Below, piece after piece: positions 2,532-51,247 of a stretch of 64,000 bases of DNA. The stretch covers positions 1 through 64,000 of IMG/VR virus record IMGVR_UViG_3300045996_001458; one strand, 5' to 3'. How positions within the stretch are numbered: the first letter of the stretch is position 1; each line of letters opens with the position of its first letter. The notes under the pieces were generated by a model. That model saw only the letters and a program-made list of their open reading frames with translations, ran no database searches and was not told the origin of the DNA. The translations under genes were made by a program, and so were the position numbers. The DNA comes from a virus.

Positions 2532-3038
2532 CTACACCTCCACGCCGTAGGCGGAGAAGAGCAGCAGCATCGTGGAGCAGAAGCCCTTGCGTCCGTCCAT
2601 GCAGATGCCGCACTCTCCGGCATCGGTGGTGGCGTGGAGGCGGATCATCTGCCGGTCCGCTTCGCAGCGCCTGATGATCGCAGCCGGGTCGTGTCGGGCG
2701 ATGTGACGCGCTGGCCCCACTTCCTGCCCGGCCTCGTCCACGTGTACCACCCAATGCGGCGACGCACCGGCCACGCGGCCGGGGTAGGGCAACCAGCGGT
2801 ACTCCTCTACCGACGTTAGGTCGACCGCTCCGCCGTCCTCTACATCCTCCCCAAGATACTCGTTGACCGTCATGTCGACGGGCAACATGTACTTGGAGCA
2901 ATGTCGGTAGCCGTGCACCCAGTGCCAGTGCTCGCCGGTTGCCGGGGCGTCGTCGTGGCCGGCGGAGCGAGCGATGCGTTCGGTTTCGTCGATGACTTCG
3001 AGTAGGCGGTCTTCGGCCGCGATGTGCTCGACCATCAC
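2532..3038 (-). CDS. DUF6221-like phage protein (168 aa)
   Basis: Matches the plan of DUF6221 proteins common in actinobacterial phages: N-terminal acidic helix, a WHWV segment, a LTSVEEYRWLPY strand, then the hallmark HIARHDPAAIIRRCEADRQ helix and a C-terminal Cys pair (CGICMDG). Function of the family is unknown. It is one of about five related genes in this window (also at 3.0, 3.8, 13.2 and 13.9 kb). GTG or ATG start at the junction with the next gene. Confidence 0.8.
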   Translation of the reverse strand: MMVEHIAAEDRLLEVIDETERIARSAGHDDAPATGEHWHWVHGYRHCSKYMLPVDMTVNEYLGEDVEDGGAVDLTSVEEYRWLPYPGRVAGASPHWVVHVDEAGQEVGPARHIARHDPAAIIRRCEADRQMIRLHATTDAGECGICMDGRKGFCSTMLLLFSAYGVEV

Positions 3039-3343
3039 GCCACCCCGTACGCGGTGGCGAGGTCACGGATCACGGACCGCATGACCATCCACGCGTCGGC
3101 GTGAAGGTCGGAGGACTCCGCCGTCAGGCGGTAGGCCGCCACGATCCGGCGGTCGGCGTCGCAGCGGCGCAGAACCGCGTTCGGGTCGTTGTCGGCGAGG
3201 AACGGGAACAGGGTCGCCTTGCCGTTGCGGCGCGGCAGGATGAGTACGGTCCGTGCGGCCTCGGCCTTGGACGCCTTGGCTTCGATCGCCTCGGTCAGGC
3301 GGGCGAGGAGGTCATCAGTGACAGGTGGTGCGTAGGACGGCAT
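3035..3343 (-). CDS. DUF6221-like paralogue (102 aa)
   Basis: Shorter relative of the preceding gene and very similar to the gene at 13159: both carry PRRNGK followed by DNDP and LRRCxADR. A GGAG ribosome site lies about 8 nt upstream of ATG 3343. Function unknown; duplication within the phage is likely. Confidence 0.75.
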   Translation of the reverse strand: MPSYAPPVTDDLLARLTEAIEAKASKAEAARTVLILPRRNGKATLFPFLADNDPNAVLRRCDADRRIVAAYRLTAESSDLHADAWMVMRSVIRDLATAYGVA

Positions 3344-3646: not shown

Positions 3647-3671
3647 TGGTCCTCCTCGGCGGAAGGGGCGA

Positions 3672-3830
3672 TCAGGTGGCGAGCCACGCCTTGAGCAGGC
3701 GGCTCAGCTTCTTGGCGTTGCGTCGCGGTACACGGGCACCGCAGCAGGAGGTGTAGACGTAGAGGCCGTTCGGGGTGAACTCGAACAGGACGGTGTGGTG
3801 GCCGGAGCGGAGTCGGAACCGCTTGGTCAC
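3672..3830 (-). CDS. Small basic protein (52 aa)
   Basis: GTG start (VTKRFRLRSG) in a GTGA overlap with the upstream DUF6221-like gene. Predicted beta hairpin (TVLFEFTPNGLYVYT), a CC pair, then a basic C-terminal helix (RRNAKKLSRLLK). Function unknown. Confidence 0.6.
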   Translation of the reverse strand: MTKRFRLRSGHHTVLFEFTPNGLYVYTSCCGARVPRRNAKKLSRLLKAWLAT

Positions 3831-4195
3831 GGTCGCCACTCCGGGCGATAGCCGGGGCGGTGGCGGTAGGCCAGGGTCAACGCGTCTACGGCAGCACCGA
3901 GTCCACACAGGGTGAGGTAGTCGCCGTCCTCCATCTCGGCGTCGTATGAGTCGAGAATGGCGGTGTGAGCTTCACACTGGGCGAGGACGGCGCGGGGGCT
4001 GTGCAGCTGCCAGTGGCGATCGAGCCCCGTCGGCGGCGGGTACCAACCGGCGTCTTCCAGTTTGCCGGACGGTCGCCACTTCTCCCAGTCGGCGTCGCGG
4101 TGGTCGTCCTCGTCGCCCCACTCGGCACGGGCAGCAAGCGCCGCCTTCTTTGTCTCCGCAATCTGCTCGCGAAGCCAGTTGATCTGATCGAGCAT
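3827..4195 (-). CDS. DUF6221-like paralogue (122 aa)
   Basis: Starts MLDQINWLREQ with GGAG upstream; the longer frame would run into the tRNA gene at 4236, so I reject it. It keeps the family layout: N-terminal helix, HWQLHSP segment, and a VLAQCEAHTAIL helix in place of LREVEAKR. Function unknown. First gene after the tRNA-like locus. Confidence 0.7.
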   Translation of the reverse strand: MLDQINWLREQIAETKKAALAARAEWGDEDDHRDADWEKWRPSGKLEDAGWYPPPTGLDRHWQLHSPRAVLAQCEAHTAILDSYDAEMEDGDYLTLCGLGAAVDALTLAYRHRPGYRPEWRP

Positions 4196-4235
4196 GGTGT
4201 GACTCCTCGGCGGAAGGGTCGGAGGGAAGATCGTG

Positions 4236-4332
4236 CTCACCGGACAGGATTTGAACCTGCGCTTCCGCCCCTCGGTCGTCCATCTCTGTCCGACCGAGCG
4301 AGTGGCGTCCTGGGCCGCTAAACGACCGGTGA
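4236..4332 (-). tRNA. tRNA-like gene with an expanded anticodon arm (97 nt), anticodon unassigned
   Basis: A perfect 7-bp acceptor stem (TCACCGG with CCGGTGA), a Glu-type D-arm (GTTTAGCGGCCCAGGAC) and a standard T-arm (GCAGG-TTCAAAT-CCTGT) are present, with discriminator G. Between them the anticodon region is too long: a short CGCC/GGCG stem encloses about 34 nt including an extra perfect 8-bp hairpin (CTCGGTCG/CGACCGAG, 12-nt loop). The total of 97 nt is about 20 nt above a class I tRNA. It could contain an intron-like insertion, be a class II variant, or be a decayed gene. Confidence 0.75.
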
Positions 4333-4336
4333 ACTC

Positions 4337-4609
4337 TTAGGCGTGCACCCTTGTGCGCTGGCGCATCCCGTAGGGGTGATCGCGGGCGAGCGGAGGGTTC
4401 TCAACCTCGACGCAATGGCGACTGTCCACGGCCCACACCGCGCCGCCTTCCAGCCGTACCAGCAACCAGCCCGGTCGTTCGTTGCCGACGACCGTCACCG
4501 GCATGTGGCGGTGCCGCGTCAGGTAGTAGAGGACCCGGCGCCCTTCGGGAAAGGTCTTCGGAGTGCGCAGGTCCGGATGGGTGCAGTTGGCGCACCTGTT
4601 CACGGGCAT
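4337..4609 (-). CDS. Small zinc-finger-like protein (90 aa)
   Basis: Starts MPVNRCANC with GGAGG seven bases upstream. One N-terminal CANC pair and a later Cys/His could bind metal; the rest looks like a small beta barrel (RHMPVTVVGNERPGWLLVRL). Ends four bases before the tRNA-like gene. Family not recognised. Confidence 0.65.
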   Translation of the reverse strand: MPVNRCANCTHPDLRTPKTFPEGRRVLYYLTRHRHMPVTVVGNERPGWLLVRLEGGAVWAVDSRHCVEVENPPLARDHPYGMRQRTRVHA

Positions 4610-4625
4610 CGGCGCACCTCCTTCG

Positions 4626-5012
4626 CTACCTCGATGCCGGTTCACTCACATAGGTCGGGGTGACACCGTCAGCGGGCACAACATCTTCGACCAACCAGTA
4701 GGTCTTCCCGCCGTCATGGGACATGGCACGGGAGTGGCGAAGGTTCTGCCACCACGGCGACCCGCTCATCTCCGAGCGATCGATCCACTCGTTGGGGTCG
4801 TCCGTGATCGGCGAGAGGGGTTCGAAGCGGAGTAGGCGTTCGAGGTACGCGATCGCGTACGGGGCGGAGCCGCCGGAGTGTCCGCAGTCGGCGAACGCCT
4901 GGACCACGGCGACGATGCCGTCGATGGTGTCCGGATCTTCGCCGAGGCGCTGGAGTTCGCGTCGGGCGTGGGCGACGAGATTGCTGTCGGTGGACGTGAT
5001 GGCGGCGGTCAT
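4626..5012 (-). CDS. Conserved hypothetical phage protein (128 aa)
   Basis: Helical N-terminal half followed by a characteristic C-terminal segment, PWWQNLRHSRAMSHDGGK then TYWLVEDV, which I recall from several actinophage proteins of unknown function. ATG overlaps the upstream HNH gene stop by 4 nt. Confidence 0.7.
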   Translation of the reverse strand: MTAAITSTDSNLVAHARRELQRLGEDPDTIDGIVAVVQAFADCGHSGGSAPYAIAYLERLLRFEPLSPITDDPNEWIDRSEMSGSPWWQNLRHSRAMSHDGGKTYWLVEDVVPADGVTPTYVSEPASR

Positions 5013-5365
5013 CGGGCACCTTTCCTGGAGTTACAAGATCGACAAAGAGGCGTGAGCGGTTGCATCGGGTCTCCACCGCGTGCGATGGGCACCGGGTCGT
5101 CGGCGGTCAGCTCGGACGGGAACACCTCGTGCGGCTCGCGGCCGTAGCCCGGACACCAGCCCATCCCGTCGTGCTCTTCGACGTGGGCATCAATCGTCGC
5201 CTTCCGGTGCCGCCGGACCTCGGGTGTCCGTGCCCGGTTGGTGGGTGAGGCGAGGCGACGTGACCGCTCGTGCCGGGCGTGGCACTTCTCGATGCAGTAG
5301 CCGGACGGGGTGGACTTGTTGTTGCAGCCCGGGGTGGAGCACCGCTTCGTGGCCCGCTGAGGCAT
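5009..5365 (-). CDS. HNH-endonuclease-like protein with an altered first catalytic position (118 aa)
   Basis: N-terminal CSTPGCNNKS zinc ribbon, a basic helical linker, then the HNH core: WCPGYGREPHEV, LTADDPVPIARGGD and LTPLCRSCNSRKG. In active relatives the middle strand reads D-H-V-x-P; here the residue following the first Asp is Asp rather than His (ADDPVP, codons GAC GAC CCG), so the general-base His seems absent. It may be inactive or only bind DNA. Such proteins are common in actinophage early regions. Starts at ATG 5365, four bases after the upstream stop. Confidence 0.75.
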   Translation of the reverse strand: MPQRATKRCSTPGCNNKSTPSGYCIEKCHARHERSRRLASPTNRARTPEVRRHRKATIDAHVEEHDGMGWCPGYGREPHEVFPSELTADDPVPIARGGDPMQPLTPLCRSCNSRKGAR

Positions 5366-5369
5366 GGCT

Positions 5370-8721: not shown

Positions 8722-9155
8722 GAGGGACCTCCTCCGCGTGAAGTTGTTGTCCGGTCGAGCCCTCACCCAAGGGAGGGGCACCAATGCCAACGGTTCCCGC
8801 AGGGGCCTGAACCGGGCGGCGCAGCAGTTGGCGTGCCGCGCTGTCGGTGGTGTCCCTGACGCTCCCCCGGATCAAGGCTCGACCGGGAAGTAAGTGGGCC
8901 ACGACCCCGAGCACACCGCCGCCGCTGGTGCTCAAGAGGTCGTGGCCGGTATCCCCAACCGCGAGGGTCGGGGAGTTAGGCGACGGTCCGTTGCGGCCTG
9001 AAGCGTGCCGCCCGGTCTCCGCCTTGCCGGTGCGCCCGGTACTGCCGAAGCAGAACGGTCCCGCTGGCCGACTCGTTCTTGGGTGGGCGCATCCGGCCAG
9101 GGCGTGTACCCCTGGGCTGTCCGGACACTGCATCAGCACTTCCGAATGCGCCTCG
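8722..9155 (-). promoter_or_regulatory. Non-coding 434-bp leader between tRNA-fMet and the tailspike
   Basis: No convincing gene on either strand; the frames here have poor ribosome sites and end in the tailspike leader. It is unusually long for this packed genome, so it probably carries the promoter and 5' leader of the tailspike gene. No promoter was assigned with confidence. Confidence 0.45.
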
Positions 9156-9230
9156 TAGCGAGGGCAGGATTTGAACCTGCGACCTCTGGGTTATGAGCCC
9201 AGCGAGCTGACCGAGCTGCTCCACCTCGCG
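9156..9230 (-). tRNA. Initiator-type tRNA-Met (CAT)
   Basis: A 75-nt cloverleaf with anticodon CAT. Initiator hallmarks are visible: three consecutive G-C pairs at the base of the anticodon stem (CTGGG-CTCATAA-CCCAG) and a mismatched first acceptor pair (C1 opposite T72), with six normal pairs after it. D-arm (GAGC...GCTC) and T-arm (GCAGG-TTCAAAT-CCTGC) are canonical; discriminator A. No CCA is encoded. Function as a phage initiator tRNA is inferred. Confidence 0.9.
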
Positions 9231-36471: not shown

Positions 36472-36498
36472 GGGGGTCTCCTCAGGTCTGGTGGTCGG

Positions 36499-36572
36499 TG
36501 CCCCCGCCGGGGTTCGAACCCGGACGGGTCCGCTTTTAAGGCGGCTGCCTCTGCCGGTTGGGCTACGGGGGC
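36499..36572 (-). tRNA. tRNA with anticodon TAA (reads UUA), class I shape
   Basis: A 74-nt cloverleaf: acceptor GCCCCCG/CGGGGGC, T-arm CCGGG-TTCGAAC-CCCGG, anticodon loop CTTAAAA giving anticodon TAA, discriminator A and no encoded CCA. The anticodon reads leucine codon UUA, rare in actinomycetes and developmentally restricted in some. The variable loop is only 5 nt (CCCGT), unlike normal bacterial tRNA-Leu, so charging identity is uncertain. Overlaps the end of gene 36563 by 10 nt. Confidence 0.85.
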
Positions 36573-46030: not shown

Positions 46031-46920
46031 GCGGCACTCGCCCTGTCCGGCCCGGGCGCAGGGACGTGCACATCGGTGACGCCGTGCAGTCGTCGGGCCT
46101 CGATCCACAAGTCCTTCAGCACCGTCTTGGCGATGGCACGCAGAGCGCGACCGTGCTGGTGCGCGGGCGGCAACGGGGAGCCGACTTCGGCCGGCTTGCC
46201 ACTGGGTCCGCATTGTTTGCAGGGCACGTTGTGCACCGCGTCGGCGTACTTCGCCCGCGTCTCGTCGTAAACCGTGCGGTACTTCGAACCGGACGGGGCC
46301 TTCACGCACGAGGTGGCGATGAGCCACGCCCGCTTGCGGGCCTCTTGGGACCAGTTCGACTTCTGTCCGCGCGTCCGCTTGGGCGCGGTTGAATGGCTCC
46401 CGCCAGCGTTCACCATCTGGGTTTCGAGCACATAATGGCTGGCGGGAAGTTGGGTCCCAGTGGTGCGGGCGCCTTGGGTTTCGTCGCACGAATGACCACT
46501 GGGAAGTGTGTGGTATCCGCAGTACGCCCAGAGTTCGGACACGGTGCGGGGCCGCTGGTGCAGGGTGTTCCAGTACGGGTCGCCGATCTCGCCGAGCAGG
46601 CGGGCCAACTGCTTCTCGCCGACGCCGGTGGCCTGTTTGATCCACGGACCCCACTGCGAGCGGCGCATGTGCGACTGGAGCTGCTTGATCGCCTGGTCCT
46701 CCACGGCGGCCAGCGCTTCCAGCGACAGCGCGATGCGCTTCACGTCACGGTGGTCCTCGGGGAGTCCGAGGCTGCGGCGGATGCCGTCGTCGTCCACCTC
46801 GGTTGAGGTGAGCTGACGGAACCGGTTCCCGCTGGCGACGCGCAGGGACTCAAGGTCGTCCACCTGGGACGCGAGGATCTTCAGGAGCGGGTCGAAGAGC
46901 AGACCGTTGGGGTTGTTCAC
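46027..46920 (-). CDS. IS110/Tnp_20-domain protein without RuvC domain (297 aa)
   Basis: GTG start 46920 after AAAGGAG. Residues 1-90 are helical (coiled-coil-like), then HhH-type QATGVGEKQLARLLGEIGD (96-114), SELWAYCGYH (128-137), an insertion (138-178), and GQKSNWSQEARKRAWLIATS plus YRTVYDETRAKYADAV and HGRALRAIAKTVLKDLW, aligning with the C-terminal transposase_20 domain of IS110 recombinases. The N-terminal DEDD RuvC domain of true IS110 enzymes is missing. Its leader carries five hairpins and its insertion encodes two more of the same design (see array). Confidence 0.7.
   Translation of the reverse strand: MNNPNGLLFDPLLKILASQVDDLESLRVASGNRFRQLTSTEVDDDGIRRSLGLPEDHRDVKRIALSLEALAAVEDQAIKQLQSHMRRSQWGPWIKQATGVGEKQLARLLGEIGDPYWNTLHQRPRTVSELWAYCGYHTLPSGHSCDETQGARTTGTQLPASHYVLETQMVNAGGSHSTAPKRTRGQKSNWSQEARKRAWLIATSCVKAPSGSKYRTVYDETRAKYADAVHNVPCKQCGPSGKPAEVGSPLPPAHQHGRALRAIAKTVLKDLWIEARRLHGVTDVHVPAPGPDRASAA
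46398..46504 (-). ncRNA. Two hairpin units inside the Tnp_20 gene
   Basis: Units at 46398-46447 (CCCGCCAGC/GCTGGCGGG) and 46455-46504 (CCCAGTGGT/ACCACTGGG), separated by AAGTTGGGT, each with a 30-nt loop G-N9-TGGGTTTCG-N9-TG. They coincide with the family-specific insertion of the encoded protein. Same design as the leader array. Coding strand is minus; RNA function inferred. Confidence 0.7.
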
Positions 46921-49847: not shown

Positions 49848-51044
49848 ATGGGCAGGCCGCCGCTTGAACCTGGCACCGCAGGCAGCATCACCGTCACAGC
49901 CCTACCGGAGGGCGGCCATGTCGCCCGATGCCGGTTCGGCGACTACGACGGCGTCACCCGCCCGGTCGAGCGTCGCGGAAAGAACCAGCAGGCCGCGCGT
50001 GCGAACCTCCAGAAGGCGCTGAAGGATCGCAAGCGACTGGGTGGCGACGGTGAGATCGGCCCGGAGACCTTCGTGAAGGAGCTCGCCGAGCTGTGGTTCA
50101 CCAAGATCGAGGAGCGGGTGGCCGCCGGCAAACGGTCGCCGGGAACCGCGCGGACCTACCGCATCTACATGGACTCGCTCGTGATCCCGCTCATGGGCAA
50201 ACTCCGCCTCCGGCAGGTAACCGTGGGACGAGTCGACGCGCTCATCGCCGCGGCAGTGAAGGAGAAAGGGCCGGGTGCGGCGAAGACCACGCGGGCGGTG
50301 ATCTCGGGCATCCTCGGCATCGCCGTCAGGCACGACGTACTCGACGCGAACCCGACCCGCGAGGCCGAGGTGATCGAGTCCCCCGACAAGAAGCCGGCCA
50401 GGGCGCTGACGCTGGACGAGGTGGCGCTCATACGTGGGAAGGTCCGCAGCGACAAGCGGTCCGCGGCGCGGGACCTCCCCGACTTGGTGGACATGCTGCT
50501 TGCCACGGGACTACGCATCGGTGAGGTCTGCGCGATCACCTGGGACTCGCTGAATCTCGACGCGCGGACTGTCGAGGTTCGGGGGGTGGTGATCAGAGTC
50601 AAAGGCCAGGGCCTCACCATCAAGACGTATCCGGGGTCCAAGACGAAACACCGGACGCTGCTTCTTCCTCGATGGGCCGTCGCGATGCTGCTCGATCGGC
50701 AGGTGAGGCAGATACCGAACGAGTGGAACGTGGTGTTCACGTCCCCAAGGGGATTCCTGCGCGACCCCAGTAATACAAACGCGGATCTGCGGGACGTTCT
50801 CGACAAGGCCGCCGTCGATGATCAGGGCATGGAGGTGTTCCCTGCGATGGAGTGGGTGACGAGCCATGTCCTCGGCCGCAAGACGGTGCTCACGCTGATG
50901 AACCTCGCCGGGCTTCCGGCCAGCGCGGCGGCGGACCAGGCGGGACACTCGAAGGTGTCGATGACGCAGGACCACTACTTCGGCAGGAAGACCACCGACA
51001 CGGGGGCCGCAGACCTGCTGGACGACCTGTTCGAGTCCAAGTAG
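49848..51044 (+). CDS. int: Tyrosine integrase (398 aa)
   Basis: SAM-like arm and core-binding N-terminus (residues 1-170, TFVKELAELWFTKIEERV) and C-terminal catalytic domain. Active-site R223 (GLRIGEV), K265 (SKTKHR), H340, R344, H367 (GHSKVSM) and Y377 (DHYFGR) are visible. Box II reads H340-V-L-G-R344, one residue more than the canonical H-x-x-R, see findings. It integrates at tRNA-Asn, judging by the adjacent attP. Plus strand, ending 19 nt before the first arm repeat. Confidence 0.9.
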   Translation: MGRPPLEPGTAGSITVTALPEGGHVARCRFGDYDGVTRPVERRGKNQQAARANLQKALKDRKRLGGDGEIGPETFVKELAELWFTKIEERVAAGKRSPGTARTYRIYMDSLVIPLMGKLRLRQVTVGRVDALIAAAVKEKGPGAAKTTRAVISGILGIAVRHDVLDANPTREAEVIESPDKKPARALTLDEVALIRGKVRSDKRSAARDLPDLVDMLLATGLRIGEVCAITWDSLNLDARTVEVRGVVIRVKGQGLTIKTYPGSKTKHRTLLLPRWAVAMLLDRQVRQIPNEWNVVFTSPRGFLRDPSNTNADLRDVLDKAAVDDQGMEVFPAMEWVTSHVLGRKTVLTLMNLAGLPASAAADQAGHSKVSMTQDHYFGRKTTDTGAADLLDDLFESK

Positions 51045-51142: not shown

Positions 51143-51189
51143 GGCTCCCCCTACTGGATTCGAACCAGTAACCCTTCGATTAACAGTCG
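51142..51189 (-). other. attP core: 3'-terminal fragment of tRNA-Asn (GTT)
   Basis: On the minus strand CGACTGTTAATCG reads the tRNA-Asn anticodon loop (GTT), then T-arm ACTGG-TTCGAAT-CCAGT and acceptor strand AGGGGGA with GCCA. The D-arm and 5' acceptor strand are absent or not paired, so this is only the 3' half, as expected of an attP core rather than a complete tRNA gene. The target is presumably the host tRNA-Asn gene. Confidence 0.85.
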
Positions 51190-51247
51190 CCGCTTGGCTG
51201 ACCAGGGAACTTTCGGTAACAAGACAGCTTGATAGCGGTTCGGACAT

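Follow-up and report, generated by a model that had tools for sequence, protein, structure and literature searches.

Gene order and fold at the locus

The window analysed here is a stretch of 64,000 nucleotides, a portion of an 82,067-base IMG/VR virus record (IMGVR_UViG_3300045996_001458). It contains a tRNA-like RNA gene on its minus strand, referred to below as W, whose parts and neighbours are as follows.

3827..4195, minus strand: downstream ORF of the DUF6221 family (PF19730, E 6.1e-18)
4236..4332, minus strand: tRNA-like RNA gene, predicted to be non-decoding from its sequence, its cloverleaf-constrained fold and its homologs L005, L006 and L007
4237..4260, minus strand: T-arm GCAGG-UUCAAAU-CCUGU and acceptor 3' strand CCGGUGA, from sequence
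4270..4300, minus strand: 31-nt structured insert replacing the 7-nt anticodon loop, from the fold
4301..4305, minus strand: anticodon stem 5' strand CCACU, pairing with GGCGG at 4265-4269 with one A.C mismatch
4307..4323, minus strand: D-arm GUUU-AGCGGCCCA-GGAC of tRNA-Glu type (U11-A24, U13.G22), identical in all four family members
4326..4332, minus strand: acceptor stem 5' strand UCACCGG, pairing with 4237-4243
4337..4645, minus strand: small ORF, its stop codon 4 nt ahead of the 5' end of the tRNA-like gene
4626..5012, minus strand: Tad3-family protein (type I Thoeris inhibitor), within the cassette (Pfam PF25185, E 9.5e-37)
5009..5368, minus strand: HNH endonuclease, upstream of the cassette (phrog_144, E 1.5e-8)
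51143..51193, minus strand: 3' half of a tRNA-Asn(GUU) beside a tyrosine integrase, a likely attP attachment site, from sequence

The 97-nt RNA, counted with its discriminator, has its 5' end at 4332 and its discriminator G at 4236, and reads UCACCGG-UC-GUUU-AGCGGCCCA-GGAC-G-CCACU-[CGCUCGGUCGGACAGAGAUGGACGACCGAGG]-GGCGG-AAGC-GCAGG-UUCAAAU-CCUGU-CCGGUGA-G from 5' to 3', with no CCA encoded at the 3' end. A preliminary description made from the letters of the window had proposed a tRNA-like gene of this length with an additional 8-bp hairpin and a 12-nt loop in the anticodon arm, and this was borne out on the minus strand with exactly those dimensions: positions 4291-4298 pair with 4271-4278 (CUCGGUCG/CGACCGAG) and close the loop GACAGAGAUGGA at 4279-4290. 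The same description had called the acceptor and T arms perfect, which holds for the acceptor, where all seven pairs are Watson-Crick, and not quite for the T-stem because one of its five pairs is G-U. The Glu-like D-arm that it noticed, GUUU/GGAC around the AGCGGCCCA loop, was recovered, and both this arm and the variable loop of 4 nt are of the type seen in bacterial tRNA-Glu. The 7-bp acceptor stem, D-arm and T-arm with a TTCRANN loop of a class I tRNA were all present, and in place of a 5-bp anticodon stem with a 7-nt loop and U33 we found a stem with one A.C mismatch and a 31-nt structured loop. When the fold was constrained to a cloverleaf the insert stacked on the anticodon stem to give one long arm, at a cost of 1.6 kcal/mol above the free MFE. 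A 17-nt stretch of the T-arm is identical in the phage's own tRNA-Met (9155-9230, minus strand; T-arm at about 9165-9182).

W was not called by ARAGORN in default mode nor by Rfam at the gathering score. The relaxed 'pseudo/intron' mode of ARAGORN returned a meaningless tRNA-Pro(cgg) for W, and its class II or pseudo-tRNA calls had inconsistent anticodons (Pro, Arg, Cys) without U33; a tRNA-Glu reported with '-i' at 46453-46555 was dropped for its poor T-arm. Comparable cloverleaf-plus-insert matches were found in none of 60 first-order Markov-simulated sequences of 64 kb, and the fold z-score of W was -2.9 on the correct (minus) strand. Together with three homologous loci, described below, these values confirmed that the tRNA-like feature is real and beyond chance.

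The Tad3-family protein is a clear homolog of this anti-Thoeris protein in an actinophage-like genome, and the small ORF at 4337..4645 had no Pfam or PHROGs match. Three DUF6221 paralogs cluster around the element (2532-3038, 3035-3343 and 3827-4195, minus strand). The HNH and DUF6221 neighbour proteins gave no tblastn match in 50,697 phage records, and a promoter/terminator scan found none on the minus strand. The intergenic sequence CCTTCCGCCGAGGAG (window 4190-4220 and 3650-3667, minus strand) precedes two ORFs and recurs in L072, a syntenic relative. Another sequence, CCGAGGAG, which resembles start-associated sequences, has 20 copies on the minus strand against a single one on the plus strand.

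The relative L072 encodes an HNH protein 77% identical to that of the window and is without the whole block of Tad3 gene, small ORF and tRNA-like gene; directly after its HNH stop comes the start of the next ORF, a region homologous to that of the window's downstream DUF6221 ORF. At L005 only 8 nt separate the HNH stop from the start of the tRNA-like gene, and 2-3 nt its end from the following ATG, and at L006 and L007 an ORF which we read by eye as HNH-like, with no profile match, ends just beside the tRNA-like 3' end. Since the block is present in W and missing in L072, and the relatives have HNH-adjacent placements, the element behaves as a cassette. Tad3 belongs to this presence/absence cassette in W and was not seen at L005, L006 or L007.

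A constant body with variable hairpins

The preliminary description had proposed a comparison with homologous phage loci, and a search pattern consisting of the exact D-arm, a gap of 36-66 nt and the T-loop identified three of them, L005, L006 and L007, in three other viral contigs. Outside the insert their bodies are 90-95% identical to W; the HNH gene common to W and L005 has 67% DNA identity by comparison. The inserts of the three relatives span 18-29 nt. L006 and L007, which are closely related, have a common insert with two differences, while the W, L005 and L006 inserts are mutually unalignable, yet each forms a hairpin, so that a structured insert is present in all four members and is common only to L006 and L007. 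Cloverleaf folds lay 1.2-2.9 kcal/mol from the free optimum in all four. Between the W/L005 and the L006/L007 loci the tRNA-like gene is essentially the sole nucleotide similarity, apart from one marginal 49-nt match.

Two stem pairs differ between members. Acceptor pair 3:70 is A-U in W and L005 and G-C in L006 and L007, and anticodon-stem pair 29:41 is A-U in L005, G-C in L006 and L007 and A.C in W. Covariation at the level seen among the four sequences was reached by 56 of 500 shuffles; it is not beyond the shuffles and is suggestive only.

The exact D-arm spelling of W, TTTAGCGGCCCAGGAC, was seen only in insert-bearing members, and a search with the T-arm and acceptor gave no member with a normal anticodon arm. 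The T-arm plus acceptor 3' end had no copy in 396 Actinomycetota genomes, and BLAST against the 50,697 phage records returned T-arm or D-arm fragments only, with no full relative. A weak model match of 121 nt in L072 proved spurious on inspection.

Wider patterns recovered, in unrelated phages, further bodies of Glu type whose inserts are non-removable (L010, L018, L041, L045, L048, L077/L078); two of these bodies, L018 and L077, are followed by an encoded CCA. They also recovered Glu-like genes with a loop hairpin in Microtetraspora and, there with mispaired acceptors, in Streptomyces. A Glu-type D-arm was part of every pattern, so that the searches are silent on any preference for Glu bodies. 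Such genes are skipped by standard tRNA finders, which probably leaves the class under-counted; patterns tied to one Glu-type body already gave several unrelated lineages with inserts. In L010:4597-4702, L018:5066-5169 and L077:149-285 the D- and T-arms are separated by 53-81 nt and the inserts have an AGTAGGR motif in common. The phage of L018 carries RtcB.

Decoding capacity and alternative explanations

The preliminary description had found no clear anticodon and had raised an intron of the bacterial tRNA kind as an unusual possibility. Every single block that can be placed from position 26 to the variable loop was removed in turn, and a 5-bp stem, 7-nt loop and U33 were required of the product. 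There was no solution in W, L005, L006 or L007, even with one stem mismatch allowed, so the lack of a recoverable anticodon stands and the intron hint does not. A normal class II fold, the other outcome which that description had considered, failed the same test: with block placements in the variable loop included, no arm with at least 4 stem pairs and U33 was found in W. Archaeal tRNA loci from the same scan were mostly solved by block removal, as were jumbo-phage tRNAs, in which the insert follows position 28 and the restored anticodon fits the body. Under known rules W therefore does not decode as a tRNA, whether spliced or not, because a stable hairpin has taken the place of the anticodon loop.

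The W RNA is an unusual variant among phage tRNAs and tRNA-like RNAs and belongs to a small family. As the same body carries different hairpins in a few unrelated viruses, it is probably a tRNA look-alike with a job outside translation. We tentatively favour, at rather less than even probability, a non-decoding tRNA mimic built on a tRNA-Glu body which would be excised like a tRNA and may serve as a counter-defence decoy. The pairs 3:70 and 29:41, kept through changes on both sides, speak for the mimic, as do a body better conserved than the HNH gene nearby and almost the sole match between the W/L005 and L006/L007 loci, cloverleaf folds close to the free optimum and structured inserts in all four members, the failure of block removal to restore an anticodon, the absence of the Tad3 block from L072 and the comparable Glu-type bodies in unrelated phages. 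The family of only four close members, its covariation not beyond the shuffles and the A.C mismatch in the W anticodon stem speak against it. The counter-defence part comes from a single Tad3 neighbour, present in W only, which weighs against that part.

The strongest rival is a decaying tRNA-Glu pseudogene that moved between phages in an HNH or moron cassette, its anticodon loop lost and its body looking conserved only through recent transfer. We regard this as possible, although on the unlikely side. An HNH-like gene lies near the W and L005 copies and, by eye and without a profile match, beside L006 and L007 as well, the element is absent in the syntenic L072, and the A.C mismatch in the W anticodon stem and covariation no higher than in shuffles also point this way. 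The T-arm identity with the phage tRNA-Met is compatible with gene conversion, and degenerate Glu-like genes do occur in Streptomyces. However, every stem is kept in all four members, including the two pairs changed on both sides, and this counts against decay because random decay would strike stems too. Only the anticodon loop has been destroyed, and each time it was replaced by a structured element.

Next comes a processing signal in an operon, in which the body would be a cutting signal for RNase P and RNase Z that separates a polycistronic mRNA, leaving the anticodon arm free to vary. The tight placement of the gene, 4 nt past a stop codon in W and between the HNH stop and the next ATG in L005, fits this, as do the positions of L010 between terminase genes and of L077, flanked by a small ORF and a long tape-measure-like one. 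The L006 and L007 copies, however, are not similarly placed between codirectional genes, and RNase P and RNase Z read mainly the acceptor and T-arm, which would leave the invariant Glu-type D-arm and the structured inserts unexplained, so that we consider the punctuation reading unlikely.

An interrupted tRNA, in which a protein-spliced or self-splicing mini-intron is removed to give a normal tRNA, has a precedent in jumbo phages carrying tRNAs whose 41-50 nt insert, once removed, restores a body-matching anticodon. It is nevertheless very unlikely here, given that block removal was unsolved in all four members. RtcB-dependent splicing was set aside with no RtcB found in any of the four records, and a group I intron with the insert of 31 nt giving no Rfam match; group I introns are about 200 nt or more with a conserved core, far larger than this insert.

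Two further identities have little to recommend them. A Ro60-bound Y RNA of the YrlA type, a non-decoding tRNA mimic, appears highly improbable: bacterial Y RNAs have a tRNA-like domain and occur in phages (PMC7765460), but W has a full 7-bp acceptor stem, no TROVE/Ro gene was found in the four viral records, although the host might have a Ro protein, and no Rfam Y RNA matched at E values as high as 10. A tyrosine integrase in this phage (domain at 50481-50978) suggests a temperate lifestyle, but an attP role for the tRNA-like gene in integration into a host tRNA gene has almost no probability, with the integrase about 46 kb off, its own tRNA-Asn half-site directly beside it, and the tRNA-like 3' end absent from the 396 Actinomycetota genomes; we excluded the attP identity on the half-site adjoining the integrase. 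This tRNA-Asn half-site itself had no match in 119 Actinomycetota genomes. A tmRNA combines a tRNA-like end of Ala identity with a tag-peptide reading frame, and none was reported by ARAGORN. Antisense action of the W loop on the phage itself was rejected, the longest match being 10 nt against a null of mostly 9-11.

Possible action and related tRNA-like genes

Phage tRNAs are commonly interpreted in one of two ways, as codon helpers or as substitutes for tRNAs that host defences have cut. For a conserved phage body without decoding ability the codon explanation falls away altogether, and roles of phage tRNAs outside translation become open to direct test. As a tRNA mimic, the W RNA would be co-transcribed in a leftward operon and cut out by host RNase P and RNase Z, after which a CCA tail may be added and the RNA stabilised as a tRNA-shaped molecule. 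It could then bind a host protein that recognises the body of a tRNA, the likeliest role being that of a counter-defence decoy or tRNA mimic, and the lineage-specific hairpin might block decoding or cleavage, or contact the target.

Phage tRNAs are known to evade host tRNA nucleases (PMC10264068, PMC11555353), and van den Berg et al. (2023, PMC10264068) described phage tRNAs, including those of actinophages, whose altered anticodon loops evade anticodon nucleases. These resemble W in being phage genes with departures in the anticodon loop and a proposed tie to tRNA-targeting defence; they differ in that theirs are point changes in tRNAs that still decode, whereas W has a hairpin instead of the loop and is left with no anticodon. 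The nuclease RloC has tRNA-Glu as a natural substrate and cuts the isolated anticodon stem-loop (PMC3874168), and is a poor fit for the W RNA because the W RNA is without such a stem-loop.

A constant body with a variable hairpin is also the design of engineered tRNA scaffolds, which carry an RNA payload on a tRNA body and are expressed in E. coli (for example PMC3753655). Those are man-made, and a natural counterpart in W is hypothetical. The broader proposal, that phages have a natural class of 'tRNA scaffold' small RNAs in which a conserved tRNA-Glu body, processed as a tRNA by the host, would carry interchangeable hairpin payloads in the anticodon's place and inhibit or redirect host proteins such as tRNA-targeting defences, seems to us doubtful. 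We found no description of a class with a non-decoding tRNA body and a hairpin insert in the open-licence literature.

Among cellular genes, archaeal intron-containing tRNA-Glu genes (L023, L024, L026, L031, L033) share the Glu-type body and a hairpin insert in the anticodon arm, but block removal restores a decoding loop in these genes and not in W. In two Microtetraspora species (L020:2686-2766; L030:4777-4857) a CCC-GCAA-GGG hairpin replaces the anticodon loop of a Glu-type tRNA-like gene which adjoins genes looking MurB-like and MurA-like, and its product may be a tRNA dedicated to biosynthesis and not to decoding.

The jumbo-phage tRNAs (CBB, GAP32, Vibrio D479) likewise have an anticodon-arm insert and are missed or misnamed by annotation, being labelled tRNA-OTHER, Phe or Lys or left unlabelled in the records. 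In contrast to W, their insert of 41-50 nt interrupts the 5' strand of the anticodon stem, and its removal after position 28 gives body-matching anticodons (Glu UUC, Lys UUU, Asn GUU, Pro AGG). These genes, of 114-124 nt, were located at L050:2995-3108 and 4696-4817 (Pectobacterium phage CBB) and at L051:1345-1468, 1496-1618 and 2660-2779 (Vibrio phage D479), with similar ones in GAP32, BF and Erwinia SNUABM phages. The inserts all begin A-rich, contain a hairpin and often carry a TACnGCA-like motif, and they look like a putative, undescribed tRNA mini-intron. A fourth tRNA-like gene of Vibrio D479 (L051:1635-1750) has a similar insert of 42 nt in the anticodon loop and not in the stem.

The window also encodes a tRNA with anticodon UAA (Leu) at 36497-36572 on the minus strand, which has a class I body, unusual for leucine, and an encoded CCA. 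In Enterococcus phage EFDG1 (L057:340-440) an unannotated tRNA-like gene lies amid annotated tRNAs, with the acceptor and T-arm intact and an odd anticodon region.
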